Source: Epilithonimonas zeae (lineage in GTDB: Bacteria; Bacteroidota; Bacteroidia; Flavobacteriales; Weeksellaceae). From it: 64,000 bases of DNA. The notes beneath the pieces are model-generated. The model was not told where the DNA came from. It made no database searches and saw only the letters and a program-made list of their open reading frames with translations. A program made the position numbers and the translations under genes. This document shows positions 18,676 to 56,358 of this stretch, in pieces. How positions within the stretch are numbered: position 1 is the first letter of the stretch; each line of letters begins with the position of its first letter. The stretch covers positions 1,240,001-1,304,000 of the forward strand of contig NZ_FSRK01000001.1 of the NCBI RefSeq assembly GCF_900141765.1, in the 5' to 3' direction.

Positions 18676-18757
18676 CGCGGCCCGGCTTGAGCGGAAATCC
18701 TTTTTACGCAACGTAGTGGATTGAAAAGATTGGGAGCGGAAGACGGAAAAGCTGCCC
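18676..18757 (-). repeat. Interspersed palindromic repeat, family A, copy 2
   Basis: On the - strand it begins GGGCAGCTTTTCCGTCTTCC and ends near CAAGCCGGGCCGCGAATG. It sits between the GH105 and CE12 genes in the sense orientation of that operon. Confidence 0.8.
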
Positions 18758-18777: not shown

Positions 18778-20031
18778 TTATTTCTCAAATTCTAAGCTTG
18801 CCAAAATGAAAGGTCCGGTTCCTTTCCCGTCATTGGAACGGATTTTTTCATTGACGTAATATTCGTAAGAACCGTCTCTGTAAGGTTTTCCGCCTAAGCC
18901 CGCAACAGCACAACATTTATTAAGATTGACAACGCCATTTTCATCAACTGTGATTAGGTTTTTGATAATTCCGTTATAACCTTTTTTTGCAGCAGCCTTG
19001 TAAGATTGTGATAAATAGCCTTCGTTGACAGATTTGATAATCGTATAAACAAACATCGCAGAAGCGCTTGCTTCCTCATAGTTACCATTTTCCAAAGGTT
19101 TGTCCAAAACCTGATACCAAAGTCCGGATTTTTTATTCTGAACTTTGATTACGGCATCAGCGTAAGATTTGATATAGGAAATGATTCTCGTTCTTCCGGG
19201 ATGATCTTTGGGTAAAAAGTCCAGAACGTCAACCATTGCCATTCCGTACCAACCCATCGCTCTACCCCAAAAATTAGGAGAAAGCCCCGTTTCTTTATTG
19301 GCCCAAGCTTGTTCTTTGCTCTCGTCCCAAGCGTGATAAAGCAACCCTGTTTTTTTGTCTAAAAGATTTTTCTGAACCGAATCAAATTGAAAAACTATGT
19401 CATCATATGCTTTTTGTGCATCTGTTCCTTTTGTAAAATCTTTTGTATAATGTGTATAAAAGGGCATTCCCATATAAAGCCCGTCCAACCAAACCTGATA
19501 TGGATAGATTTTTTTGTGCCAGAAAGAGCCTTCTTTGGTTCTTGGTTGTCCGTCGATTTGTGAACGTAAGGTTTGAAGTGCTCGCAGGTATTTTTCTTTT
19601 TTTTCTTTTTCGTAAAGATAAAGCAATACGTTTCCGCTATTCAACATATCAATATTATACTTTTCCAGCTCGTATGTTTGAATGGTTCCGTCTTCATTGA
19701 TCAACTTTTCGCCGAAACCACTGATATAATCATAGTATTCCTTCTTTCCGGTTTTTGCATACAGTTTTTCTGCGCCATCTAATACAATGGCAGATGGATA
19801 AGTCCATTTTGGGCTTTTACTAAAATCAAGCATCCAAGCTTCAGGGAAACGATGCATCTCGGAAAGCAGCATTCTCTCTGACCAATTCAGATTTGTGGGA
19901 ACAATTTTTCCTGATTGAGGTTTTGAAGTTTCTGTTTTAGTTGTCACTTTTGATTGTGCAGAAACCAAGAATAACCCCGAACTTAAAACTGTGAAAGTGA
20001 GAATTTTTATTTTACGACTTATAATATTCAT
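18778..20031 (-). CDS. Unsaturated rhamnogalacturonyl hydrolase, glycoside hydrolase family 105
   Basis: 417 residues with a signal peptide. The (alpha/alpha)6 fold of GH105 shows in MHRFPEAWMLDFSKSPKWTY, YNIDMLNSGNVLLYLY, YPYQVWLDGLYMGMPFYTHY and FWGRAMGWYGMAMVDVLDFL. The Asp residues in the second and third segments fit the catalytic and substrate positions. The family removes the unsaturated galacturonic acid left by pectate or rhamnogalacturonan lyases, so it works downstream of the PL1-like lyase at 8 kb. It is the first gene of the - strand enzyme series and is divergent from the kdp regulator. Confidence 0.9.
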   Translation of the reverse strand: MNIISRKIKILTFTVLSSGLFLVSAQSKVTTKTETSKPQSGKIVPTNLNWSERMLLSEMHRFPEAWMLDFSKSPKWTYPSAIVLDGAEKLYAKTGKKEYYDYISGFGEKLINEDGTIQTYELEKYNIDMLNSGNVLLYLYEKEKKEKYLRALQTLRSQIDGQPRTKEGSFWHKKIYPYQVWLDGLYMGMPFYTHYTKDFTKGTDAQKAYDDIVFQFDSVQKNLLDKKTGLLYHAWDESKEQAWANKETGLSPNFWGRAMGWYGMAMVDVLDFLPKDHPGRTRIISYIKSYADAVIKVQNKKSGLWYQVLDKPLENGNYEEASASAMFVYTIIKSVNEGYLSQSYKAAAKKGYNGIIKNLITVDENGVVNLNKCCAVAGLGGKPYRDGSYEYYVNEKIRSNDGKGTGPFILASLEFEK

Positions 20032-41552: not shown

Positions 41553-42374
41553 TTAACTTTCAATAAACTCCAAAAGATCTTTATTAATGGTAGCTGCTTC
41601 CGTAGTCGGCATTCCGTGAGGGAAACCAGGATACGTTTTTATCGTTCCGTTTTTCAATAATTTGATTGATTTCAAAGCCGCATTCTGGTAAGGTACAATC
41701 TGGTCATCTTCACCGTGAAGTACCAAAACCGGAATATCAACATTCTTCAAATCATCTCTGAAATCAGTCTCAGAAAATGCTTTGATGCCGTCATAGTGAG
41801 CGACAATTCCACCCATCATTCCTTGTCTCCACCAGTTTCTCTGCACACCTTCTTTCACATCTGCACCTTCTCTGTTGTAGCCGTAGAAAGGGAAAGTCAA
41901 ATCAATATAAAACTGTTGTCTGTTGTTCAAAGTCTGTTCTCTGATACCATCAAAAACTGACATCGGAACACCATCAGGATTTTCATCACTCGCCACCATA
42001 ATTGGCGGAACTGCACTGATTAAAACTGCTTTTTTAGCTCTTCCGTTAGCATATTTATTCACGTATCTGATTACTTCACCACCACCTGTTGAGTGACCGA
42101 TATGAACTACATCTTTCAAATCTAAGAATTCTACCAATTCCGCTGCGTCAGAAGCATATTGCTCAATCGTGTGGTTGTAAATATCCTGACTGGAGCGGCC
42201 GTGACCTCTTCTGTCGTGCGTCACCACTCTGTAACCTCTTTGCAAGAAGAAAATAACCTGCGCATCCCAATCGTCTGATGACAATGGCCATCCGTGGTGA
42301 AACATCAAAACTGGTCCTTCGCCTTGGTCTTTGTAAAAAATCTCTGTTCCGTCTTTTAATTTTAGTGTGCTCAT
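41553..42374 (-). CDS. Alpha/beta hydrolase, cofactor-free chloroperoxidase/arylesterase-like
   Basis: 273 residues, no signal peptide. The oxyanion strand FHHGWPLSSDDWD, VVTHDRRGHGRSSQ, the nucleophile GHSTGGGEV, the acid LHGEDDQIVP and the base PGFPHGMP match non-haem chloroperoxidases, which act as esterases or perhydrolases. It stands alone with its own terminator and an upstream element shared with the dioxygenase and pirin genes (see 42438), so it probably belongs to the electrophile or oxidative stress response of this region. Confidence 0.85.
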   Translation of the reverse strand: MSTLKLKDGTEIFYKDQGEGPVLMFHHGWPLSSDDWDAQVIFFLQRGYRVVTHDRRGHGRSSQDIYNHTIEQYASDAAELVEFLDLKDVVHIGHSTGGGEVIRYVNKYANGRAKKAVLISAVPPIMVASDENPDGVPMSVFDGIREQTLNNRQQFYIDLTFPFYGYNREGADVKEGVQRNWWRQGMMGGIVAHYDGIKAFSETDFRDDLKNVDIPVLVLHGEDDQIVPYQNAALKSIKLLKNGTIKTYPGFPHGMPTTEAATINKDLLEFIES

Positions 42375-45082: not shown

Positions 45083-46129
45083 TTATTTCTCAGGCTGAAT
45101 GAAAACTTTCTCAGCTGGGAATTTCTCAATTTCGCCTTCCTTCAAACCGAAATTCGTTACAACGACATCTTTCGGATTTCCGGCAAGCCATTCGCTTAAG
45201 TCAATCGATTCATATTTTCCACTGTTGAAACCAATCAGAATTCTACAAACCGTATCGCCTGTATTTTTGATGTAATGTCCGGCTCCCATTGGAACGTAAC
45301 CTACATCGCCTGCACTGAACTGCTCCGTAACACAAGTAGATTCCGCTAAAAAAACCGACATTTCCGCCTGTCCTGAAATAAAATATTGCCATTCGTCCGC
45401 ATTTGGATGCCAGTGCATTTCTCTCAAAGCTCCCGGTTGCAATTCTAAAATAGAACCGGACATTGTACTGCTGATGGGAAATTCTTTACTTGTAACCAAT
45501 CTTTGCAAACCTCCGCCCGGAACAATTCTCGGTTGTTGAGAATGCAAAGGATAACGGTGAAAACTCGTTAATTCAATATCAGATTCATTCGGACGAGCTT
45601 CAGCAACGAAAGACATTTCATCCGGAACAATTCCTGCTGCGAAGTACGCTTCTTTCTGAGGCAAAGCCGCCACTTCTTCTAAAGTTAATCCTAAATTCTG
45701 AGCGACAATTTCAGGTGGCACAGACGAAACAAAATCCGTCACGCTGAACGTGTGGTCTTCAGAAAAATTACCATTATCGAAAATCAAAATGAAATGACAT
45801 TCTTCCGTTCCTGTCGCCTGAATAGAGTGGCCATAACCTTTTGGAAAATACCAAACGTCACCCGGTTCAAAATTGTCTGTGTAACTGTGTCCATCCGGAT
45901 GAATAATCGTGGTACGAACTGTTCCCGAAATCACGTAAGCCCATTCAGCAGCATTGGCGTGCCAGTGTAATTCTCTCATACTTCCAGGTTGCAGTCTCAT
46001 AGAAACTCCTGCAATGCCGATAGAAGCAGGAAAATCTTTTACAGAAGCACCTCTTGTAGTTCCACCGTCATTCGTGCGTGGTTCTTTTTTCTCTAATTCG
46101 TATTTGAAACTTAATGATGGAGTATTCAT
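45083..46129 (-). CDS. Bicupin oxalate decarboxylase-like protein
   Basis: 348 residues in two cupin domains. The first carries HWHANAAEW and GDVWYFPKGYGHSIQ; the second HWHPNADEW and GDVGYVPMGAGHYIKN. Each gives the three His and one Glu that bind manganese in oxalate decarboxylase/oxidase bicupins. The enzyme would break oxalate into formate and carbon dioxide, but only substrate tests can confirm it. It is first gene of an operon with an M17-N protein, YoaK, peroxiredoxin and DsbA-like genes, preceded by the 68-bp element at 46176. Confidence 0.85.
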   Translation of the reverse strand: MNTPSLSFKYELEKKEPRTNDGGTTRGASVKDFPASIGIAGVSMRLQPGSMRELHWHANAAEWAYVISGTVRTTIIHPDGHSYTDNFEPGDVWYFPKGYGHSIQATGTEECHFILIFDNGNFSEDHTFSVTDFVSSVPPEIVAQNLGLTLEEVAALPQKEAYFAAGIVPDEMSFVAEARPNESDIELTSFHRYPLHSQQPRIVPGGGLQRLVTSKEFPISSTMSGSILELQPGALREMHWHPNADEWQYFISGQAEMSVFLAESTCVTEQFSAGDVGYVPMGAGHYIKNTGDTVCRILIGFNSGKYESIDLSEWLAGNPKDVVVTNFGLKEGEIEKFPAEKVFIQPEK

Positions 46130-46175
46130 AATGATAAGTTTTTGTGATTAATTAGTGTTTGTCTTTATTTCTATT

Positions 46176-46243
46176 GTAAAGCTACTTCGGAATGAGACGT
46201 TTTTGAGGTGATTTTCGGTGAATGGGCAAAATGAGTCGGTGAG
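46176..46243 (-). promoter_or_regulatory. Conserved 68-bp upstream element B, bicupin operon copy
   Basis: On the - strand CTCACCGACTCATTTTGCCC, then a CGAAAA block, then exactly 30 bp to CTTTAC. The same layout with the same spacing lies upstream of 48446 and 53221. The end TAGCTTTAC could be a degenerate -7 box. The other 200 bp of the gap hold no gene. Confidence 0.65.
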
Positions 46244-46395
46244 AATTTGAAAGGAGTAGTTGGTCTCTTAAGAGTACAGAAAATAAACGATAGATAAAAG
46301 ACTTTCGATTTGATTTAATAATAAAAAATCCTTCACAATTTGGATTGAGAAGGATTAAAATTTGGGTCAAATTATTATTAAATGTATGTATTTTT

Positions 46396-47364
46396 TTATC
46401 TCACAAGAATAATCTTTCCTGTATGAGAACCTTCTTCAAGCAATCGGTGTGCTTCCGCAGCTTCCGAGAAAGGAAATGTTTTGAAAATAAAAGGTTTGAA
46501 TTTTTTAGATTCAATTAAAGGCCAGACATTCTTTTGGATTTCCTTAGCCAATTGTTTTTTAAACGCATATTCCCTGCTTCTCAAAGTACTTCCTGTAATG
46601 GTCAAACGCTTTGTCATTACTTTCCAAATATCTAAATCGACACGACTTCCACTTACCGCATTGATGTAAACCAATCTGCCTTCAGGCTTTAAAATATTGA
46701 TGTTTTTGGCCAAATAATCACCGCCAATCATATCCAGAATGACGTCGACACCTTCATCTTGAAGTTCAGTTTCAAAATTCTGTGTTTTATAATTAATGTA
46801 AGAATCTGCGCCGAGTTCAAGACAATTTTGTCCTTTTTCATTAGAACCAACAGTGACAATTACTTTTGAACCCAAAGCGTGAGCAATCTGAATTCCCGTG
46901 ATTCCAATTCCACTGTTTCCACCGTGAAGTAAAAAGGTTTCTCCCGATTTTAATTTGCCTCTCTGAAAAACATTAGACCAAACTGTAAAAACCGTTTCCG
47001 GTAAGCTCGCCGCCTCAGCAAAACTTAAATCTCCCGGAATGGGTAAACATTGACCTTCTCTCACAGCAACATATTCTGCGTAACCGCCGCCTGCAAGAAG
47101 TGCACAAACTCTTTCTCCAACGGTGAAATCTACGACATCAGGTCCGCATTTTACAATGGTTCCGGCAACTTCCAATCCTGAAATGTCTGCAACAACACCT
47201 TCAGGAGCAGGATAATTACCTTCACGCTGGAATACATCCGGACGGTTGATTCCCGCGGCTTTCACTTCGATTAAGACTTCGTCTCCGGATATTTCGGGAG
47301 TAGGGTATTCCTGTAATTCCAATACATCAGGAGCTCCAGGTTTTGTAATAACGATTGCTTTCAT
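46396..47364 (-). CDS. NAD(P)H-quinone oxidoreductase, zinc-free MDR family (PIG3-like)
   Basis: 322 residues. The catalytic domain opens MKAIVITKPGAPDVLELQEY; AAGINRPDVFQREGNYPAPEG is the quinone oxidoreductase signature. The nucleotide fold shows in LLHGGNSGIGITGIQIAHALGSKVIVT. Catalytic zinc ligands of alcohol dehydrogenases are absent, which fits quinone reductase or PIG3-like enzymes. It would reduce quinones, and it follows the lipocalin-like gene by 28 bp as the last gene of its operon. This suits an electrophile-detoxifying role. Confidence 0.88.
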   Translation of the reverse strand: MKAIVITKPGAPDVLELQEYPTPEISGDEVLIEVKAAGINRPDVFQREGNYPAPEGVVADISGLEVAGTIVKCGPDVVDFTVGERVCALLAGGGYAEYVAVREGQCLPIPGDLSFAEAASLPETVFTVWSNVFQRGKLKSGETFLLHGGNSGIGITGIQIAHALGSKVIVTVGSNEKGQNCLELGADSYINYKTQNFETELQDEGVDVILDMIGGDYLAKNINILKPEGRLVYINAVSGSRVDLDIWKVMTKRLTITGSTLRSREYAFKKQLAKEIQKNVWPLIESKKFKPFIFKTFPFSEAAEAHRLLEEGSHTGKIILVR

Positions 47365-47392
47365 TTTTTTTAAATTTTAATATCAGATTCTT

Positions 47393-47836
47393 TCAAACTC
47401 TTTTCCAGGTAAGTTGATGAGTCACCAATAGTGAATTGCTTATGAATGGTTTCTCACTTTCAAGATGCAGAAAACCATCTTTAAAGATAACGATTCTATT
47501 CTGCATTTGCCCCGTCCAGTTGGGAAAAAGTGAGACGTACATCGTGTGGCTCACCAACTGTTTTTCATCGTCCGTTTTGAACGGTCCCGAATACGCAAGA
47601 TAGGTCGAGCCTTCCTGTGTATATTCTTCCGGCGTGGCATTGGTCCAATGTTCCTGATGAAAGTTTTCACGGTGCGTATCCATAATTTGTGCCGACATAT
47701 AACCATCTGGATTGTAAATAATCAGTCCTTTCGGATTTTCGCCCATCGGATGGGTAATTTCTCCGCCGTTGACAGGAACTTCATTAAGTTCTACCAAAGT
47801 CCAAGTTCCTACAAGTTTTTCAAAAAGTGTTTCCAT
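47393..47836 (-). CDS. Lipocalin-like domain protein
   Basis: 147 residues, no signal peptide. The opening LVGTWTLVELNE, then GLIIYNPDGYMSAQIM and TYLAYSGPFKTD, is typical of lipocalin-like (PF13924-type) proteins encoded beside oxidoreductases. It probably binds a small hydrophobic molecule. I chose the ATG at 47836, since the longer frame to 47875 runs into a hairpin. It lies between the unknown 185-residue protein and the quinone oxidoreductase and is probably co-transcribed with both. Confidence 0.8.
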   Translation of the reverse strand: METLFEKLVGTWTLVELNEVPVNGGEITHPMGENPKGLIIYNPDGYMSAQIMDTHRENFHQEHWTNATPEEYTQEGSTYLAYSGPFKTDDEKQLVSHTMYVSLFPNWTGQMQNRIVIFKDGFLHLESEKPFISNSLLVTHQLTWKRV

Positions 47837-47850
47837 AACTTTTAAAATTA

Positions 47851-47876
47851 AATGAGCGTACCGAAATACGCTCATT
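47851..47876 (-). terminator. Hairpin after the unknown 185-residue gene
   Basis: AATGAGCGTA and TACGCTCATT form a perfect 10-bp stem with a 6-nt loop, followed on the - strand by TTAATTTT. It could terminate part of the transcript before the lipocalin gene. Confidence 0.65.
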
Positions 47877-47888
47877 ATGTTTTTTGAA

Positions 47889-48446
47889 TTAGAAAGGCTG
47901 ATTGTATTTACCTGTCAATGCTTTGTTTTCGATGCTTTTTGCAAAGTTGGGCGTTTCTTCGTGGTTGTGAGCGTCGGAAGCAGCTTGTCTGGAAGCGGCT
48001 GCATCAGCAAGATTCACGTTGTGTTCTTTTAGATATTCGAACATTTCAGGTGTTGCGGTTGCGTGAATTTCGTTAGTGTACAATGTTGTGTTATCATCGA
48101 TTTTTGTGGCTTTCAGTTCCCATAAAACCTGAACTTTGGTACGACCACCTTTGGTAATTGAATCTGAAATCGACAACATTCTGCAGTAATCCGGACGGTG
48201 TTCTACCGCTACATAATGCTGAATCATCAAAGCATCTCCGATAGTTTCTACGTTCAAAGAAACCGGTTCGCCGTCAAAAGTGGTAGAAATAGCCGCTCCG
48301 ATGTGCTGCGTTGAGCATCTTTGATATTCGGCATCGGGAAGATTGAGTAGCCAATCTGCGATGTTTATTTTTTCGATTGGGGCATTGATAATCGCTGTAA
48401 CTGTAGAGTGAGACAATGCGTTTTCTGGTGTTTGAAGGATTTCCAT
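47889..48446 (-). CDS. Protein of unknown function, possibly SRPBCC-like, heading a stress operon
   Basis: 185 residues, no signal peptide. It opens with VTAIINAPIEKINIADWLLNL and continues in strands such as VSLNVETIGDALMIQHYVAVE and TKVQVLWELKATKI, which suggests an alpha/beta ligand-binding fold of the SRPBCC kind. The assignment is weak. The C-terminus (AAASRQAASDAHNHEETPNF) is disordered and rich in Ala and His. The promoter carries element B at 48489, so expression probably follows that of the bicupin operon and dps. Confidence 0.55.
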   Translation of the reverse strand: MEILQTPENALSHSTVTAIINAPIEKINIADWLLNLPDAEYQRCSTQHIGAAISTTFDGEPVSLNVETIGDALMIQHYVAVEHRPDYCRMLSISDSITKGGRTKVQVLWELKATKIDDNTTLYTNEIHATATPEMFEYLKEHNVNLADAAASRQAASDAHNHEETPNFAKSIENKALTGKYNQPF

Positions 48447-48488
48447 AATGTTTAAAGTTTAATTGTTTGTATATGTTAATTTGATGGT

Positions 48489-48556
48489 GTAAAGCTACAT
48501 TCAACAAATTTCAAAATCAATTGGTGTTCGATGAACAGGCGGAAACTGTCGTTGAG
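48489..48556 (-). promoter_or_regulatory. Conserved 68-bp upstream element B, unknown-lipocalin operon copy
   Basis: On the - strand CTCAACGACAGTTTCCGCC, then a CGAA block and 30 bp to CTTTAC, aligned without gaps with the copies at 46176 and 53256. It has more changes than they have with each other but keeps all blocks and the TAGCTTTAC end. Confidence 0.6.
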
Positions 48557-48615
48557 TAAGTGTTATGATTTATTGAATAAAGACAATGAAGTAATTAAAC
48601 TCAAAGTTTGTTTTT

Positions 48616-48664
48616 CCGTAGGAATCTCAGCAAAGTATTTAAAATAATATCTAGATTCCTGCGG
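48616..48664. repeat. Palindromic repeat, family C, copy 1
   Basis: CCGTAGGAATCT at the left and AGATTCCTGCGG at the right flank AAAGTATTTAAAATAATAT. The copy at 51679 has the same arms and a nearly identical centre. It lies in the 309-bp gap at 48447-48755 with element B and the terminator at 48701. Confidence 0.82.
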
Positions 48665-48700
48665 AATGACAAAAGTGAAAAGTACCTTTATTATAAACAA

Positions 48701-48729
48701 AAGAATCACTGTAATGCACAGTGATTCTT
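48701..48729 (-). terminator. Hairpin terminator of the monooxygenase-like gene
   Basis: AAGAATCACTGT and ACAGTGATTCTT form a perfect 12-bp stem around AATGC. It lies 27 bp after the stop codon, with A-rich + strand sequence on the far side. Confidence 0.85.
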
Positions 48730-48755
48730 AGGTATTAAATTGATGTTGATTGATA

Positions 48756-49304
48756 TTATTTAAAAAGCCATCTTCTAATCAGTTTTGTATAATTCGGCAT
48801 TACAGCAAAAACCATCAGAAAAACAATACAGCCTGAAATCAAAAGTCCGTCTGAATAATGATTCGCAGGGATTTTTAAGAGTCTTAAAAAGGGTAAAACT
48901 ACCAACGGAACCAATAATGACAGAGGATAAATGGCTGACCAGGTTACTAAAAATTGTTTCCATCGGACGGGAACTTTGGTTTGATTTTCAGTTTCAAAAA
49001 GGAAATCAAGACCTGATTTTATTTTATACTTATCATTTTTTCGGAACAATGAATTAGCTTTTTCGATGTGTTTTTTTCTGGTGTCAGATTCCATCCATTT
49101 TTTTAGATTTTCAATGGTATCAAATCTGATAATCACGGTGTAAACAAACGTTAAATCGGGAATAGGTCTTATAATTTGCCAATCGATAAAACCTTTTGAA
49201 TGCTTGGTTAAAGGAACGATTTCAGTTAACCAATTTTCATATTCCTCTTGTTTTCCATCTAGAATATGATGTGAAATAACAACAGATACCCCTTGATTTT
49301 CCAT
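48756..49304 (-). CDS. Antibiotic biosynthesis monooxygenase domain protein with membrane anchor
   Basis: 182 residues. The first 105 form an ABM-type alpha/beta barrel (VSVVISHHILDGKQEEYENWL, SKGFIDWQIIRPI, TFVYTVIIRFDTIENLKKWM). Two membrane helices follow (YPLSLLVPLVVLPFLRLL and GLLISGCIVFLMVFAVM). The ABM family includes quinone-forming and haem-degrading oxygenases, and also non-enzymatic members. The long C-terminal membrane part is of a known fused type. It lies beside the hybrid kinase gene on the same strand and ends with its own terminator. Confidence 0.8.
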   Translation of the reverse strand: MENQGVSVVISHHILDGKQEEYENWLTEIVPLTKHSKGFIDWQIIRPIPDLTFVYTVIIRFDTIENLKKWMESDTRKKHIEKANSLFRKNDKYKIKSGLDFLFETENQTKVPVRWKQFLVTWSAIYPLSLLVPLVVLPFLRLLKIPANHYSDGLLISGCIVFLMVFAVMPNYTKLIRRWLFK

Positions 49305-49326
49305 AATAAAATTGGTTTTAATTAAT

Positions 49327-51540
49327 TTAGTTACCGATGGATTTCATAAATAATTTAGCTTCAAAAAAAGATTTCAGTAAAACATCTTTTACCTCTTCCA
49401 AAGCCAGTTGCGATGCTGGATTTTCTTCGGTTGTTAATTCTAAAATATCTAATTTTTCCTCTAACAAAGGAAGCAAACCCATTATTGCCACACTTGATTT
49501 TAAATCGTGCGCTCTCAATTTCAGCAATTTAAAATCTTTATTTTCATAAGCCAGTTTCAGTTCCTGCAAATGAGTTGGGACTTTATCTAAAAACTGTTGT
49601 GTCACGGTTCTTTCAAAATCTTTGTCGCCATTGCTGATAGACTTCAAATAAGTAAGGTCGATGAACTCGTAATTAGAAACGATTTCTTCAGCTTTAGTTT
49701 CCGTTTTTTCGTTTTCTTTTAATCCGAAATTGGAAATTAATTTGAATAACTCTTCCTCTGTAATAGGTTTAGAAATGTATTCGTTCATTCCACGGCTCAT
49801 ACATCTTTCGCGTTCGCCTGCCAAAGCGTGTGCGGTCATTGCGATGATGGGCGTGTTCAGTTTCAGTTCTTCACGGATGGTTTGCGTGGCAACATAACCG
49901 TCCATTTGTGGCATTTGGATGTCCATCAGAACCAAATCACAGTCGTTATTTCTGAGAAATTCTACCGCTTCCAGACCGTTGTTTGCAGTTTCAAAATCAA
50001 TGTTCCATTGTGAAAGGAGATGTTTCATCAGACTTTGATTGATAGCGTTATCATCAACGATTAGAACCTTCAAAGGCGTGTTTGTTTTATCTTTAAAATA
50101 ATCGGTGTCAACTTTCGGAACTACATTAAGCTGTTCTTTCGCAATCGCATAAGGAATATAAAAATGGAAAGTCGTGCCTTTTCCCTGTTCGCTGATGACT
50201 TCGATATCGCCATTCTGCAACTGAATCAGACTTTTCACAATTGATAAACCAAGACCGGTTCCGCCGTAATTTCGGGTCGTAGAATCTTCACCCTGATTAA
50301 ATCTTTCAAAGACTTCAAGAAGTTTTTCTTTATCAATTCCGATTCCGGTGTCAGAAACTTTAAAGCCGACAACGACTTCATTTTCGCTCTGTTGTTTATT
50401 GTAAATTTCGATATTAATGTTTCCCTGATGCGTAAATTTAATGGCATTTCCGATGAGGTTGACAAGAATTTGCGTGAGTCTCGTGGCGTCGCCATTCAAA
50501 GTGTCAGGAATCGAAGTGTCAATTTTGCTGGAAATCGTCAATCTTTTTTCTTTGGCTCTTTCTACGAAAAATGTTTCAACCGAATTTACCAATCCATTGA
50601 TGCTGAATATGCCTTTGGTAATGCGCATCATTCCGGCTTCGATTTTTGATAAGTCTAAAATATCATTGATAATCGCCATCAGATTTTCTCCCGAACGTTG
50701 AATGGATGAGACAAATTCTTTCGAAGTTTCATCCAAAGGTCTTTTCTGCAAAAGGTTGGTAAAGCCCAAAATCCCGCTCAAAGGCGTTCTGATTTCGTGG
50801 CTCATATTAGCGAGGAAATTTTCTTTTGTTTGTGCGGCGACCGATGCTTTTTTCTCTGCAACATCCAATTCCTGAATCAATAATCGCTGACGTTTAAATT
50901 GGCGAAGAATATGATAACCAACAATGGAACCGCTCAAAATCAAAAGAATCAATAGAGAAATGTCATACAATCTCGCTTTTTGTCCCATTGCTTCCGTTTC
51001 TTTGCTGAGGTCAACCATATGAAGTTTTCTGCTTTCGTAGATTTTTGCAGTGATGGAAGTGATTTCGTTCGAGATTTTTCGAGCTCTTGGATTAGCAATG
51101 GAAGTGTTGTCATCCATATTTCCAAGGGTGTGATAACGGAGCAGCAATTTATCCTTCGTCGTTTTCTTTTCCATTGCGAGAACGCTCAATCTGTGAATCA
51201 GCTTTTCTTCAACGTCGTCTGAATTGTCTTTGGAAAGGGAATCGAGAAAGTTTTCTATCTGATTTATTTTTTGGTCGATTCCTTCGAGATGCGTCGTGTC
51301 GTTGGTCGCAATGGAAGCTCGGATTCTGCTTTCAACGCCCAAAATATCACGGTCGATTTCACGTAAATGGTTGCTGGAACGCAATTCGTTGAGAAGTCGG
51401 TTGTTATTTTGAATGAGTTCTTTGGTATTTTTAGCCGAATTGATTTGAACCGCTATCAATAGGAGAGAACCCGCAATAAATGTGAGGATGATGAAATAAC
51501 TGAACCGTCTGTTTCCCATTACTGAAGATATTTTTTTCAT
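49327..51540 (-). CDS. Hybrid sensor histidine kinase with receiver and Hpt domains
   Basis: 737 residues. Membrane spans at 14-31 and 192-212 enclose a mostly helical sensor region of about 160 residues (CHASE3-like in shape). HisKA follows with His248 (NMSHEIRTP), HATPase_c (NLIGNAIKFT, GGTGLGLSI), a receiver with Asp540 (LVLMDIQMPQMDG) and an Hpt domain with His678 (RAHDLKSS). It is a complete phosphorelay in one protein. It lies before a LytTR regulator gene on the same strand, separated by 358 bp of repeats; whether they work together is unclear. Confidence 0.92.
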   Translation of the reverse strand: MKKISSVMGNRRFSYFIILTFIAGSLLLIAVQINSAKNTKELIQNNNRLLNELRSSNHLREIDRDILGVESRIRASIATNDTTHLEGIDQKINQIENFLDSLSKDNSDDVEEKLIHRLSVLAMEKKTTKDKLLLRYHTLGNMDDNTSIANPRARKISNEITSITAKIYESRKLHMVDLSKETEAMGQKARLYDISLLILLILSGSIVGYHILRQFKRQRLLIQELDVAEKKASVAAQTKENFLANMSHEIRTPLSGILGFTNLLQKRPLDETSKEFVSSIQRSGENLMAIINDILDLSKIEAGMMRITKGIFSINGLVNSVETFFVERAKEKRLTISSKIDTSIPDTLNGDATRLTQILVNLIGNAIKFTHQGNINIEIYNKQQSENEVVVGFKVSDTGIGIDKEKLLEVFERFNQGEDSTTRNYGGTGLGLSIVKSLIQLQNGDIEVISEQGKGTTFHFYIPYAIAKEQLNVVPKVDTDYFKDKTNTPLKVLIVDDNAINQSLMKHLLSQWNIDFETANNGLEAVEFLRNNDCDLVLMDIQMPQMDGYVATQTIREELKLNTPIIAMTAHALAGERERCMSRGMNEYISKPITEEELFKLISNFGLKENEKTETKAEEIVSNYEFIDLTYLKSISNGDKDFERTVTQQFLDKVPTHLQELKLAYENKDFKLLKLRAHDLKSSVAIMGLLPLLEEKLDILELTTEENPASQLALEEVKDVLLKSFFEAKLFMKSIGN

Positions 51541-51678
51541 AAATGTTTTTCTTTGTTTTTAACGCAAAGTCCGCAAAGATTTTTTACTATTATTGAAAAT
51601 ATTTTTGCTCGCAAAGGCGTAAACTCAGCAAAGATTAAAATATTAAGTTTGTCATTGACTTCGTCGAATCTGCGATTT

Positions 51679-51728
51679 CCGTAGGAATCTCAACAAAGTA
51701 TTTAAAAGAATAATTTAGATTCCTACGG
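51679..51728. repeat. Palindromic repeat, family C, copy 2
   Basis: CCGTAGGAATCT and AGATTCCTACGG are perfect 12-bp arms around AAAGTATTTAAAAGAATAATT. It is nearly identical to the copy at 48616. The stretch before it (51541-51678) has tandem-like CGCAAAG motifs and no gene. Confidence 0.85.
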
Positions 51729-51772
51729 AATGACAAAACACTGTTTTTATGTTAATGTTTCTTTTACACTGA

Positions 51773-51881
51773 ATCTGCAGCCCGACTTGAGCGGAAATCC
51801 TTTTTTGCTTGTTCTCAAGTTCTATTTAGATTGAAATCGTCTGCAAAAAAGATTGGGAGCGGAAGGCGGATTAAGCTGCCC
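51773..51881 (-). repeat. Interspersed palindromic repeat, family A, copy 5
   Basis: On the - strand it begins GGGCAGCTTAATCCGCCTTC and ends GTCGGGCTGCAG. The centre is longer than in other copies, with CTTTTTTGC and GCAAAAAAG as a long-range stem. It follows the LytTR gene in the sense orientation, so it may mark that transcript's end. Confidence 0.85.
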
Positions 51882-51898
51882 AAATAAATATCTTAATT

Positions 51899-52594
51899 TT
51901 AAAAGACATTCATTCTTGTATTAAGCGCTTTTCGGTATGCATCTGCAACGGGAATGAATTTTCCGTTGATCATAATTCCGCCGTCCTGAAGCGTGTCTAT
52001 CTTGCCAACAGAAACAATATAAGACCTATGAACACGGATAAAATCATCTTTTGGCAAACGTTCTTCGGCCGTTTTCATCTTGCCGTGGATGGCGAACATT
52101 TTTTCTCTTGTGTAGAATTTTACATAATCGCCCATTGCTTCCGCATAAAAAATATCATCGAGCTTCAAACGCCTTGTGATATTAGAATCTCTCACGAATA
52201 GGAATTCATCTTTGGTGACTTCCACATCTTCTTTTCTGCTTTCGAGAATTGCCTGAGCTTTGCTGACTGCCTGTAAAAATCTCGCAGGCATCACGGGTTT
52301 CAGGATGTAATCTGCGATATTCAGTTCGAAAGCTTCAAGTGCGTAATCTTTATTGGATGAGGTGAAAATAATGATAATGTCTTTCCCAGAAAGGTTTTTA
52401 GTGAGTTCGATTCCGGTCATTTCCGGCATTTCGATATCCAAAAATATCAAATCTACCTGATTGTTCTGCAAATGATTGTAAGCTTCAATCGCGTTGGAAT
52501 ATTCACTGACAATTGTAAGATTGGGAATCTGCTTTGCCAAGTGTGCGAGTGTGGTTCTTGCGATATCGTTGTCATCAACAATCAGGGCTTTCAT
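51899..52594 (-). CDS. LytTR-family response regulator
   Basis: 231 residues. A receiver domain with phosphoacceptor Asp53 (LIFLDIEMPEMTG) is followed by a LytTR DNA-binding domain (DEFLFVRDSNITRRLKLDDIFYAEAMGDYVKFYT, FIRVHRSYIVSVGKI). The family usually works with a 5TM-type or YehU-type kinase. None is adjacent, and the nearest kinase is the hybrid kinase downstream, which has its own receiver. A promoter-like -7 box lies at 52619. The genes it controls are unknown. Confidence 0.9.
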   Translation of the reverse strand: MKALIVDDNDIARTTLAHLAKQIPNLTIVSEYSNAIEAYNHLQNNQVDLIFLDIEMPEMTGIELTKNLSGKDIIIIFTSSNKDYALEAFELNIADYILKPVMPARFLQAVSKAQAILESRKEDVEVTKDEFLFVRDSNITRRLKLDDIFYAEAMGDYVKFYTREKMFAIHGKMKTAEERLPKDDFIRVHRSYIVSVGKIDTLQDGGIMINGKFIPVADAYRKALNTRMNVF

Positions 52595-52618
52595 AGGGAT
52601 AGTTTATTATGGTTGACA

Positions 52619-52626
52619 CAAATATA
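52619..52626 (-). promoter_or_regulatory. Candidate -7 box for the LytTR regulator
   Basis: TATATTTG on the - strand is a full match to TAnnTTTG, 24 bp before the ATG. Confidence 0.45.
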
Positions 52627-52685
52627 ATTAAAACTACTAAGATTTTTTTGCTTAATTTTTTTGATTCTATTGCGAAAGTTTTGAA

Positions 52686-52741
52686 TGCCACGAATACACG
52701 AATAATATATTCTTTTAATGTAAATTAGTGTATTCGTGGCA
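52686..52741 (-). terminator. Perfect 14-bp stem after dps
   Basis: TGCCACGAATACAC and GTGTATTCGTGGCA are fully complementary with a 28-nt loop, six bases after the dps stop. It may be a repeat serving as a transcript end. It has no T-run directly after it. Confidence 0.6.
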
Positions 52742-52747
52742 ACGTTT

Positions 52748-53221
52748 TTATCTGAAGTAAGAACGAATCATCCAGGCCATTTCTTCGTGTGTTTCTATCA
52801 GGCTTGTGATGAAGTCGCTGGAACCGTAATCTTTGTATTTTTCGGCAAAAGGCGTCACATTTCCTCTTAGAAAATCGATGATGCTTTCGTGGTCTTTTAA
52901 TAAATCTTTCATATAACCCAAACCGTCATTGGTTCTGTCGCTGTATTCTGTGAGATGCGTCAATTCTAAATAAGCTTTCATAGTTGCAGGTGCGTAATGA
53001 CCGATTTTTCTTAGACGTTCTGCAACGCTGTCAATCAATTCGTCCAACTGTTTGTACTGTTCTTCGAAGAAAATATGGTTGGCGTGGAAGTTGTCGCCGG
53101 TGACGTTCCAGTGTGCATTTCTGGTTTTGATGTAAAGTACAGTTTCGTCAGCTAAAAGTTTTGCCAATTGTTCTGCAACAGCTTCTGTGTTTTGCTCTGT
53201 AAGTCCGATGTTTGTTTTCAT
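52748..53221 (-). CDS. dps: Dps-family DNA-binding ferritin-like protein
   Basis: 157 residues. The ferroxidase site is visible as His37 in RNAHWNVTGDNFHANHIFFEEQYKQLDELIDSVAERLR, where two His, an Asp and a Glu are at usual spacing. The rest is helical and ends TSLIETHEEMAWMIRSYFR. Dps stores iron, consumes hydrogen peroxide and protects DNA as a dodecamer. The start follows element B at 53256 and faces the divergent dioxygenase gene. Expression probably responds to the same signal as the bicupin operon. Confidence 0.92.
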   Translation of the reverse strand: MKTNIGLTEQNTEAVAEQLAKLLADETVLYIKTRNAHWNVTGDNFHANHIFFEEQYKQLDELIDSVAERLRKIGHYAPATMKAYLELTHLTEYSDRTNDGLGYMKDLLKDHESIIDFLRGNVTPFAEKYKDYGSSDFITSLIETHEEMAWMIRSYFR

Positions 53222-53255
53222 AATTTTAAGATTTAAGTTGTTCTTTTTTGATGAT

Positions 53256-53323
53256 GTAAAGTTCGGTCGGAATGTCTTGGAATTAAGAGGTTTTTCGTTA
53301 AATAGGCAAAATGAGTCGTTGAG
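53256..53323 (-). promoter_or_regulatory. Conserved 68-bp upstream element B, dps copy
   Basis: On the - strand CTCAACGACTCATTTTGCC, then TATTTAACGAAAA, then 30 bp to CTTTAC. It aligns without gaps with the copy at 46176 over the whole length. It is 34 bp before the dps start. Confidence 0.68.
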
Positions 53324-53441: not shown

Positions 53442-54374
53442 ATGGAAAATAGAATATTAGGACTGCACCACATTACAGCAATTGCAGACAACGCAAAAAG
53501 AAATTTAGATTTTTATACTCAGGTTTTAGGCGTAAGATTGGTAAAGAAAACCGTTAACTTTGACGATCCGGGAACTTATCATTTTTATTTCGGTAACGAG
53601 GAAGGAACTCCTGGAACAATTTTAACATTCTTTCCTTGGGAAGGAATTGGTAAGGGAACAAATGGTTCTGGCTTGGCAACACACATCGGTTATTCAGTTC
53701 CAAAAGGAAGTTTGGAATTCTGGAAAAACAGATTTCAGCAGTTTAATGTAAACTTTGAAGAAGGCGAAATTTTTGGTGAAAAACTGATTTCATTCAAAGA
53801 CCCAGACGGACTTCAGCTACAGTTCATCGAATCTTCAAGACGTGATGACAGAAAAGTATGGACAACCGATGATATTAAAGATGAAAATGCTTTGAAAGGT
53901 TTTCATAATATCACTTTGACTTTGAAAAAAGCTGATCCGACAATCAAAGTTTTAACCGATATTTTTGGATACAATTTACAAAAAGAGGAAGATGAAAGAT
54001 ATCGTTTTGCAACTGATGCCATCGAAACGGCAAACCTTGTTGACATTATTGAAAACGATAAAATTCAGGCTGGAAGAAATGCAGCAGGAACCAATCATCA
54101 CGTTGCTTTCCGAGTGAAAGATGATAAAGTTTTAATGGAATTCCGTGAAAAAGTTTTGTCTGCAGGATTGAATATCACGCCGAAAATCGACAGAGATTAT
54201 TTCTATTCATTGTATTTCCGTGAACCGGGTGGCGTTTTATTTGAAATCGCAACAGATAATCCTGGCTTCACGGTTGATGAACCTTTGAATGAATTAGGAA
54301 TCAATTTAAAACTTCCAAAACAACACGAACCTTTACGTGCAAGAATCGAAGAGGTATTACCGAAGTTATCATAA
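53442..54374 (+). CDS. Ring-cleaving dioxygenase, VOC family (MhqO-like), first copy
   Basis: 310 residues made of two vicinal-oxygen-chelate modules. The opening GLHHITAIADNAKRNLDFYT and the second module opening KGFHNITLTLKKADP carry His residues, and TNHHVAFRV plus YFYSLYFREPGGVLFEIATD supply the other metal ligands. The family contains MhqO-type glyoxalase-fold dioxygenases that break down hydroquinones. It starts a + strand cluster with a second such enzyme and an esterase, under a promoter shared with pirin and the chloroperoxidase-like gene. Confidence 0.9.
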   Translation: MENRILGLHHITAIADNAKRNLDFYTQVLGVRLVKKTVNFDDPGTYHFYFGNEEGTPGTILTFFPWEGIGKGTNGSGLATHIGYSVPKGSLEFWKNRFQQFNVNFEEGEIFGEKLISFKDPDGLQLQFIESSRRDDRKVWTTDDIKDENALKGFHNITLTLKKADPTIKVLTDIFGYNLQKEEDERYRFATDAIETANLVDIIENDKIQAGRNAAGTNHHVAFRVKDDKVLMEFREKVLSAGLNITPKIDRDYFYSLYFREPGGVLFEIATDNPGFTVDEPLNELGINLKLPKQHEPLRARIEEVLPKLS

Positions 54375-54429
54375 GTCATCACTTTTTTCTATTTAACAAC
54401 CTAATTTAGCAAAAAGAAAAAATATTACA

Positions 54430-54726
54430 ATGGAAAGAACAGAAGTAATTTTAGGAAATGTGAGAGGCGAAATTCAGCTTTTCTCAGACGATAAAAAAGC
54501 AGGGAAAATGGATATTTCGGTCATCAAAGATAAATTAACGGTTTATCATACAGAAGTTGATGAAGAATATGCCGGAAAAGGTTTTGCCAAATTATTATTA
54601 AATCAATTGGTTTCTTACGCCAGAGAAAACGATTTAAAAATTGTACCGCTGTGTCCGTATGTTCACGCACAATTCAAACGCAATCCCGAAGAATACAATG
54701 ATGTTTGGTTTAAAGAAGAAGCATAA
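54430..54726 (+). CDS. GNAT-like N-acetyltransferase (YidJ/DUF-type)
   Basis: 98 residues. A small GNAT-like fold: KMDISVIKDKLTVYHTEVDEEYAGKGFAKLLLNQLVSYAREN contains the acetyl-CoA loop (EYAGKGFAKLL), and LKIVPLCPYVHAQFKRNP is the typical C-terminal end. These short acetyltransferases act on unknown small substrates or proteins. It lies between two ring-cleaving dioxygenase genes on the same strand with short gaps of about 55 bp, so it is probably in the same transcript. Confidence 0.85.
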   Translation: MERTEVILGNVRGEIQLFSDDKKAGKMDISVIKDKLTVYHTEVDEEYAGKGFAKLLLNQLVSYARENDLKIVPLCPYVHAQFKRNPEEYNDVWFKEEA

Positions 54727-54781
54727 AATCTGAAGACCAAACACCAAACCATCAACAATCAACCAAATACCATCAACTACA

Positions 54782-55735
54782 ATGTCACTTATCACAGGAC
54801 TTCACCACGTCACCGCTATCACAGGCGATGCACAGGAAAATATAGATTTTTACACCGGAGTTTTGGGACTTCGATTAATTAAGAAAACCGTCAATTTCGA
54901 TAATTCTGAAGTATATCATTTTTATTTCGGGGACGAATTCGGAACACCTGGAACGATTATAACGACTTTTCCTTACGGAAAAGGTTTGGCAAACGGAAGA
55001 CACGGCAAAGGAATGCTTAACACAACGGCTTTTTCCATTTCGATGGCGGCTTTTGATTACTGGCTGGAACGTCTGGATAAATTTAATATTCCTTACAAAC
55101 AGTCACAGCAAAGGTTTTCAGGTGAAGTCTTTATTTATCTGGAAGATTTTGACGGACTAGGTTTGGAGTTGGTTTTCAATGAAAAAGATGACAGAAAAGG
55201 GTATGATAACGGATTGATTCCGCGGGATTTTGCCATCAAAGGTTTTCATCACGTCGAGATTTGGGTTGATGCTTATGAAAGAACTGCTGCGCTTTTGACT
55301 ACTCAAATGGACCATCAATTAATTGCTGAAAGCTCTGACAGATTCAGATTTGGAACGGAAGATAAACCCGGAAAATATGTCGATTTGCTTTGCGCTCCCA
55401 ATTCTCTTAAAGGTTTGGCAGGAAGAGGAACGGTTCATCACGTTGCTTTTGCGACTCCCGATGCGCAGTCACAATTGGAGATGATTGAAAGACTGAATCA
55501 ATTCGGTTTGCAGCATACGGAAGTTAAAGATAGAAAATATTTTACTTCCATTTATTTCAAAGAGCCGGGTGGTGTTTTGTTTGAAATCGCCACTTCAGGA
55601 TCTGGCTTTGACATTGATGAAGAATTGGCTTCTCTTGGTGAAGATTTGATGCTGCCGGAACAGTTTGAAGAAAACAGAGGACACTTAATTGATATTCTTC
55701 CAAAAATTAATTATCCTACAGAAAAATTTAGATAA
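54782..55735 (+). CDS. Ring-cleaving dioxygenase, VOC family (MhqO-like), second copy
   Basis: 317 residues, with the same two-module build as the gene at 53442: GLHHVTAITGDAQENIDFYTGVLGLR, then KGFHHVEIWVDAYER and GTVHHVAFATPDAQS, then YFTSIYFKEPGGVLFEIATSG. It keeps the His/His/Glu ligand set. It differs from the first copy enough to suggest a separate substrate range rather than a recent duplication. The carboxylesterase gene starts two bases after the stop codon, so the two are probably translated together. Confidence 0.9.
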   Translation: MSLITGLHHVTAITGDAQENIDFYTGVLGLRLIKKTVNFDNSEVYHFYFGDEFGTPGTIITTFPYGKGLANGRHGKGMLNTTAFSISMAAFDYWLERLDKFNIPYKQSQQRFSGEVFIYLEDFDGLGLELVFNEKDDRKGYDNGLIPRDFAIKGFHHVEIWVDAYERTAALLTTQMDHQLIAESSDRFRFGTEDKPGKYVDLLCAPNSLKGLAGRGTVHHVAFATPDAQSQLEMIERLNQFGLQHTEVKDRKYFTSIYFKEPGGVLFEIATSGSGFDIDEELASLGEDLMLPEQFEENRGHLIDILPKINYPTEKFR

Positions 55736-55737
55736 AA

Positions 55738-56358
55738 ATGAGTCACACTTTAGATATAAAAACAGGCGGAAAATCATTGAATGAAGCAGAAAAAGTTTTA
55801 ATAATGATTCACGGCAGAGGCGGAAGCGCTCAGGATATTCTGAGCTTATCCCAACATTTGAATGTAGAAGATTATGCTTTGCTCGCGCCACAGGCAACTA
55901 ATGGAAGTTGGTATCCGTTATCCTTCATCGCTCCGGTTGAGCAAAATGAACCTTGGTTGTCCTCAGCCATTGAAACTGTTGGAAAAACCGTAAAAACGGC
56001 TTTGGATGCAGGCATTAAAGCTGAGAATATTTACTTTTTCGGATTTTCTCAAGGTGCGTGTTTGACTTTGGAATTTTTAGCGAGAAATGCTCAAAGATTT
56101 GGTGGAGCAGTGGCCATTATCGGTGGTGTGATTGGTGAAAAAATCAATCGTGAAAATTACAAAGGTGATTTCGCACAGACTCCGATTTTCCTGGGAACAA
56201 GCAATCCGGATTTCCACGTTCCTGTTGAAAGAGTCTATGCGACAGCCAATATTTTAAAGGAAATGAATGCTGATGTTACGGAAAAAGTTTATGCCAATTT
56301 CGGACATTCAATCAATCAGGAAGAAATTAAATTGGCGAATTCAATTGTTTTTAAATAA
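55738..56358 (+). CDS. Phospholipase/carboxylesterase-family hydrolase (MhqD-like)
   Basis: 206 residues, no signal peptide. VLIMIHGRGGSAQDILSLS holds the oxyanion region, GFSQGACLTLEFLAR the nucleophile Ser, GTSNPDFHVPVERV the acid, and NFGHSINQEEI the base. The family includes MhqD and related esterases found in quinone-resistance operons with MhqO dioxygenases, matching the order seen here. It follows the second dioxygenase by two bases. It would hydrolyse an ester or thioester formed in quinone breakdown. Confidence 0.87.
   Translation: MSHTLDIKTGGKSLNEAEKVLIMIHGRGGSAQDILSLSQHLNVEDYALLAPQATNGSWYPLSFIAPVEQNEPWLSSAIETVGKTVKTALDAGIKAENIYFFGFSQGACLTLEFLARNAQRFGGAVAIIGGVIGEKINRENYKGDFAQTPIFLGTSNPDFHVPVERVYATANILKEMNADVTEKVYANFGHSINQEEIKLANSIVFK

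Follow-up and report, generated by a model that had tools for sequence, protein, structure and literature searches.

In a 64-kb window of the genome of the Bacteroidota bacterium Epilithonimonas zeae (the window being the whole stretch of DNA analysed, out of a genome of 4,079,566 bases, or 4.08 Mb), a 68-bp element is found in three copies upstream of three transcription units: dps, an operon that opens with a bicupin gene, and an operon encoding a 185-aa protein (unk185), a lipocalin-like protein and a quinone oxidoreductase-like enzyme. On the evidence of comparative sequence analysis, this element very probably provides a LytTR two-component regulon, comprising the dps, bicupin and quinone-reductase units, with its activator operator and core promoter. 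An earlier reading of the same DNA (the original prediction) had described the element and pointed to one regulator for the three units; the 21-bp direct repeat, the adjoining LytTR regulator and the conserved GCC within the element go beyond it.

Three copies of a rare element

Both the sequence and a side-by-side comparison confirm the three minus-strand copies of the original prediction, which are located as follows.

46176-46243, minus strand: copy 1, upstream of the bicupin operon
48489-48556, minus strand: copy 2, upstream of the unk185-lipocalin-quinone oxidoreductase operon
53256-53323, minus strand: copy 3, upstream of dps

The copies had been said to align without gaps through to CTTTAC, and a direct ungapped comparison bears this out; an 8-column gap placed by MAFFT near the left end is not needed in that comparison. 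The predicted interval of exactly 30 bp between a CGAA block and CTTTAC is correct when the block is read as CGAANA. Matches at random sites throughout the genome, the outcome named beforehand as telling against the prediction, were sought with a pattern derived from the three copies, which at up to 3 mismatches yields 3 matches genome-wide, exactly these copies, compared with 0 for the reversed pattern. In a weight-matrix scan of the window (with a matrix trained on 147 sites that include the window's own three and also sites from Dyadobacter), the copies score 92, 79 and 74; no other place exceeds -24, and one shuffled window reaches -27 at most under the same matrix. On the genome-wide pattern count and the weight-matrix scores, a chance origin of the three copies is rejected.

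Anatomy of the predicted operator and promoter

The 147 distinct sites, collected from the window and its relatives by searching for a core pattern with no more than 2 mismatches and then aligned, have a constant order along the direction of transcription: TTCAMCGA, a spacer with TTTTGCC and two bases at its end, TTCANCGAA, 29 weakly conserved bases, TAGCTTTACA, and an A that is conserved at 96%. The element thereby contains an 8-bp direct repeat, TTCAMCGA-N13-TTCAMCGA, with a period of 21 bp. The mean information of 1.62 bits for the first repeat, 1.84 bits for TTTTGCC and 1.59 bits for the second repeat is inflated because parts of the core, GCC and CGA among them, were set by the search pattern. 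The 29 bp between the operator and the -7 box average 0.28 bits and the -7 box 1.33 bits; columns 28 onwards, with the -7 box among them, lie outside the search pattern, as do columns -2 to 0. In the latter, which hold the TTC of the first half-site, the bases match those 21 columns further on in 69% of comparisons, compared with at most 49% at 12 other offsets from 15 to 27, and for the whole core an offset of 21 is the best among 30. GCC is present in the spacer of 116/116 sites of a looser set (5 mismatches), though it is part of the search pattern. Across the 147 sites, then, the blocks are conserved and the middle is not, which agrees with the view that the ends of the element are selected contacts.

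A degenerate -7 box at the end of the element, likewise proposed earlier, is supported by the comparison of TAGCTTTAC with the flavobacterial box: the element has TAnnTTTA where the flavobacterial sigma-A consensus has TAnnTTTG, and TTTA occupies an identical position in 144 of the 147 sites. By eye, the three exceptions are the sites of L181 and L187, in which it is shifted by one base, and of L109, which reads TTCA. No -33 box was seen by eye in the element promoters. Because the flavobacterial -7 box TAnnTTTG is placed at -12 to -5 (PMC9723704, excerpt), the conserved A is the predicted start of transcription, and relative to this position the half-sites would lie at approximately -71 to -64 and -50 to -43, with a midpoint near -57. 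The predicted operators and boxes of the window are as follows.

46215-46242, minus strand: bicupin operator, CTCACCGA-N13-TTCACCGA, GCC in the spacer
46177-46184, minus strand: bicupin -7-like box TAGCTTTA; predicted start at the A at 46172, giving a 43-nt leader
48528-48555, minus strand: unk185 operator, CTCAACGA-N13-TTCATCGA, GCC in the spacer
48490-48497, minus strand: unk185 -7-like box TAGCTTTA; predicted start at the A at 48485, giving a 39-nt leader
53295-53322, minus strand: dps operator, CTCAACGA-N13-TTTAACGA, GCC in the spacer
53257-53264, minus strand: dps -7-like box GAACTTTA; predicted start at the A at 53252, giving a 31-nt leader

Binding sites of LytTR regulators consist of two repeats of 9-11 nt, direct or inverse, spaced 11-13 nt apart and lacking a common consensus (PMC4847170, excerpt). 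The element has this layout, with 13 nt between repeats of 8 bp, which are one base below the published length.

A LytTR regulator and a hybrid kinase beside dps

Directly downstream of dps, the proposed first gene of a dps-regulator-kinase operon, are found the genes of a response regulator and a hybrid histidine kinase.

51899-52594, minus strand: LytTR response regulator (REC and LytTR domains, the latter at about residues 140-231; Pfam 2.6e-22 for Response_reg and 4e-19 for LytTR, each exceeding the gathering score)
49327-51540, minus strand: hybrid histidine kinase, HisKA-HATPase-REC-Hpt by domain search, the proposed partner of the regulator

The dps operator probably serves the operon's own regulator and kinase as well. 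The hybrid kinase is encoded near the regulator in 47/47 loci, including the four in which the regulator is 60-66% identical, and this gene order suggests that the kinase phosphorylates the regulator. Its N-terminal sensor part shows a weak likeness to CHASE3 (E 0.0024, below the cut-off). Of the NCBIfam models, the BtsR equivalog NF008677 is the best for the regulator, with a score of 119.9 bits compared with a cut-off of 246, and membership of BtsR is therefore rejected. In a search of solved structures, all of the 60 matches listed fall within regulator residues 1-131, the receiver side.

Co-occurrence of the site and the regulator

The distribution of the site was compared with that of the regulator in genome samples of one per species. 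In a survey of 246 genomes of the family, with at most 1 mismatch allowed in a site and a regulator counted at E <= 1e-80 (identity of 84% or above), all 45 genomes with the regulator carry sites (127 in total), compared with 3/201 genomes without it (G028, G081 and G193, one site each); the reversed pattern gives 4 matches in the same 246 genomes. Fisher's test for this co-occurrence, in which ancestry is ignored, gives 4e-46. The sites of G028 and G193 have background-like scores (-20.1 and -29.5) and lie within long open reading frames (ORFs) of the opposite strand. The G081 site (C44:3390) scores 54.9, inside the range of true sites (median 73.6), and led to a relative of the regulator that the E threshold had missed, being 54% identical and just past the cut (C44:56-745, E 6.3e-80), on the same contig and approximately 2.6 kb from the site. 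An ORF with a receiver-domain-like opening ends 24 bp before the G081 site. After this recheck the count is 46/46 versus 2/200, a post hoc figure for which only the three exception genomes were rechecked.

Other samples were searched as well. In a set of 59 genomes made up of the window's own and its relatives, a regulator of 92% identity or higher occurs in 11, and precisely these 11 carry two or three sites each; G028 has one match at 3 mismatches, and the reversed control gives one match, in G052. From named records, for which the best 80 of 538 relatives were kept, 43/43 loci with a regulator of at least 83% identity have at least one site within their flanks. A search of 23 genomes of the genus at 2 mismatches returns one extra match each in G005, G016, G017, G012 and G014, none of which recurs at 1 mismatch, and the reversed control gives 4.

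In 44 stretches (the 43 loci and the window), with each site assigned to the nearest match within 760 bp, 116/116 sites lie upstream of one of six kinds of gene: dps in 42 cases, bicupin in 37, unk185 in 27, an alpha/beta hydrolase of the 41553-42374 kind in 6, a peroxiredoxin in 3 and M17-N in 1. The proposal of one regulator for the three units is supported by the conservation of the blocks together with their co-occurrence with a single regulator.

Six sites in five genomes, which speak for action in trans, are unlinked to the regulator gene. Two of these are found in G010, approximately 110-113 kb away, upstream of the unk185-lipocalin-quinone oxidoreductase genes and of bicupin, and the site of G267, approximately 511 kb away, precedes an M17-N gene. 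On contigs other than the regulator's, sites lie upstream of unk185-lipocalin-quinone oxidoreductase in G151, of an M17-N gene in G190 and of an alpha/beta hydrolase in G253, where the first long ORF starts 252 bp on. With more distant regulators, both Dyadobacter loci (65-66% identity) keep a site upstream of dps, and Pedobacter L112 (60%) has a perfect intergenic TTCAACGA-N13-TTCAACGA, lacking GCC, with TAnnTTTG at exactly the usual distance.

Two genera of the family (G180 and G000) have regulators that are approximately 100% identical, and the identity is 89-92% in Flavobacterium records and 83-87% in most Pedobacter and in the Sphingobacterium records (L070-L108). These identities suggest transfer of the cassette, and the element appears to move with its regulator among related bacteria. 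Sphingobacterium L104 has a site (19779-19855) upstream of a second, 67% identical dps, and no site was found at the dps that adjoins its regulator.

Objections and alternative explanations

Several observations weigh against the assignment of the element to the LytTR regulator. Close orthologs of unk185 (36/246 genomes) and of bicupin (at least 87% identity, 40/246 genomes) are found only with the regulator, as are those of dps among the 59 genomes; dps is therefore not an independent control, and the co-occurrence in part reflects joint inheritance of these genes. As an imperfect control, 11/201 regulator-free genomes have a bicupin that is 62-64% identical, and the site is present in 0/11. 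These bicupin-only genomes and the unlinked sites partly answer the objection. In the 200 genomes of the corrected count, to which the E <= 1e-80 threshold applied, siteless regulators of approximately 50-60% identity may have been missed. No ORF of at least 100 aa lies directly downstream of the L112 repeat, no site was found in Pedobacter L111 (regulator 64%) or at the dps of Sphingobacterium L099 and L100, and among 32 loci with regulators of 35-43% identity there is a match in L117 at 5 mismatches and in L120, L126 and L137 at 6. Finally, the GCC in the spacer is absent from the published LytTR layout.

Three other explanations were weighed. That the same LytTR regulator acts at the site as a repressor, or with dual action, is unlikely: the sign of regulation goes beyond what can be read from the DNA, and for AgrA repression of bsaA through a site downstream of the promoter has been reported (PMC4227749, excerpt), but the element lies upstream of its promoter at a fixed distance, with its midpoint near -57, similar to the AgrA sites of P2/P3 at approximately -60 (PMC4227749, excerpt), the promoter is weak by consensus, and LytTR regulators are termed an activator family (PMC5552118, excerpt).

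We consider it quite unlikely that the operator belongs to another regulator, one encoded inside the window or outside it and controlling the LytTR system as well. The spacer GCC (116/116 sites, although included in the search pattern), left unexplained by the usual LytTR layout, would fit such a protein. Against it stand the 21-bp direct repeat, which is a LytTR layout, the near absence of sites from genomes without the LytTR regulator, and the poor linkage of the seven other regulators of the window, which are found near the cassette (10 kb each side) in 0-5 of 47 loci: the Crp-like and NtrC-like proteins in 5 each (42-47% identity for the NtrC-like matches), HxlR in 2, a lone receiver in 1, and AraC, GntR and Xre in 0. 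Judged by linkage, the other regulators of the window are rejected as the binder.

Plain duplication of a single promoter, with the copies moved along in a transferred gene cluster and no common regulator, is very improbable and is rejected. The gene set is largely co-inherited and seemingly mobile between genera, but across the 147 sites the 29-bp middle retains 0.28 bits, compared with 1.6-1.8 for the operator blocks and 1.3 for the -7 box, and the blocks are kept in unlinked copies and across five genera.

Predicted target genes and neighbouring features

The genes of the three predicted target units in the window are listed below.

52748-53221, minus strand: dps (ferritin-like)
45083-46129, minus strand: bicupin, oxalate decarboxylase family (TIGR03404 4.2e-108)
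46129 down to 41553, minus strand: same-strand run from bicupin through M17-N, DUF1275, peroxiredoxin, DsbA-like and alpha/beta hydrolase genes
47889-48446, minus strand: unk185, a 185-aa protein, first gene of the second unit
47393-47875, minus strand: lipocalin-like protein (Lipocalin_5, domain search)
46396-47364, minus strand: quinone oxidoreductase-like enzyme of the zinc-binding-dehydrogenase family (domain search)

The run from 46129 to 41553 would form a single operon. For unk185, no Pfam or NCBIfam match was found at E 0.001. An oxidative or electrophile stress signal is suggested by the gene families alone (Dps, AhpC/TSA peroxiredoxin and the quinone-reductase-like enzyme). The bicupin of G151 (C9:84969-85997) has one in-frame stop within the match.

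Many dps leaders from L070 to L114 (e.g. L070, L079 and L083) contain a short palindrome just before the start codon, GAGC-AATANN-GCTC or AAGC-NNNNNN-GCTT, the arms of which vary but still match; it is a candidate small hairpin or another operator, and is absent from the window, L072, L078, L084, L115 and L119, among others. An 18-nt inverted repeat (94%) at 52686-52741 follows closely on the dps stop codon, in the gap before the regulator gene. It may be an insertion that alters read-through, because the gap between the two genes is 153 bp in the window versus approximately 57 bp in L070 and several others.

The window also contains two other intergenic repeats. The palindromic TTCCGTAGGAATCT, at 48614-48629 and 51677-51730, has three arms in the window versus 0.05 expected, and CAGCCCGACTTGAGCGGAAATCC, in two copies at 18678-18700 and 51778-51800, looks like a dispersed element. 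None of the best matches in the weight-matrix scan of the window belongs to the divergent run at 53442-56358 (glyoxalase-acetyltransferase-glyoxalase-hydrolase), which we take to resemble quinone or electrophile gene sets.

Proposed mechanism and comparison with known systems

In the proposed mechanism, the hybrid kinase (49327-51540) would sense stress, and its REC and Hpt domains would relay phosphate to the LytTR regulator (51899-52594). Two regulator molecules would then occupy the TTCAMCGA half-sites, which lie on the same side of the DNA at a distance of two helical turns, and assist RNA polymerase at a promoter with a degenerate -7 box. In this way dps would be activated, probably with the regulator and kinase genes that follow it, and so would the bicupin operon and the operon of unk185, the lipocalin and the quinone oxidoreductase. 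The sequences establish the sites with their layout and constant spacing, their scarcity in the genome and their tight association with this regulator; we infer direct binding, activation rather than repression, a phosphorelay, autoregulation and a signal of oxidative or electrophile stress. More tentatively, and with rather more doubt than confidence, the system may be envisaged as a mobile, self-contained Bacteroidota stress regulon in which TTTTGCC forms a third operator block between the half-sites, recognised either through an extended LytTR contact or by another protein, and with operator-bearing genes that reach unlinked places only in genomes holding the regulator.

The analysis provides a predicted operator, target list and promoter geometry for an uncharacterised two-component system that occurs in Chryseobacterium, Epilithonimonas, Flavobacterium, Pedobacter and Sphingobacterium. 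Within named records, the most similar regulators are those of Chryseobacterium and Epilithonimonas. It groups the 185-aa protein, bicupin and the M17-N protein, the roles of which are obscure, in one predicted regulon with Dps and peroxiredoxin. The kind of system is already known; the operator and regulon appear to be new, no description having been found in a literature search by title and abstract opening that had most subscription journals outside its range.

The promoter resembles the flavobacterial sigma-A promoter in its -7-like box TAGCTTTAC and in the 96% conserved A at the predicted start, and differs from it in that the last G of the box is A and no -33 box is seen by eye. Staphylococcus aureus AgrA differs from the system of the window in its quorum-sensing role and in its half-site. 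At agr P2/P3, AgrA binds as a dimer to direct repeats upstream of poorly spaced promoters, centred at approximately -60, and the excerpted account of its sites describes no conserved spacer block, unlike the element here (PMC4227749). YpdB and BtsR of Escherichia coli are also REC-LytTR regulators (domain layout in PMC5552118, excerpt), and their promoters likewise carry two upstream direct repeats with a short spacer, those of YpdB being GGCATTTCAT (PMC4847170, excerpt). The half-site sequence found here is a different one, and the kinases of YpdB and BtsR are of the LytS type, whereas the kinase beside dps is a HisKA hybrid with an Hpt domain.

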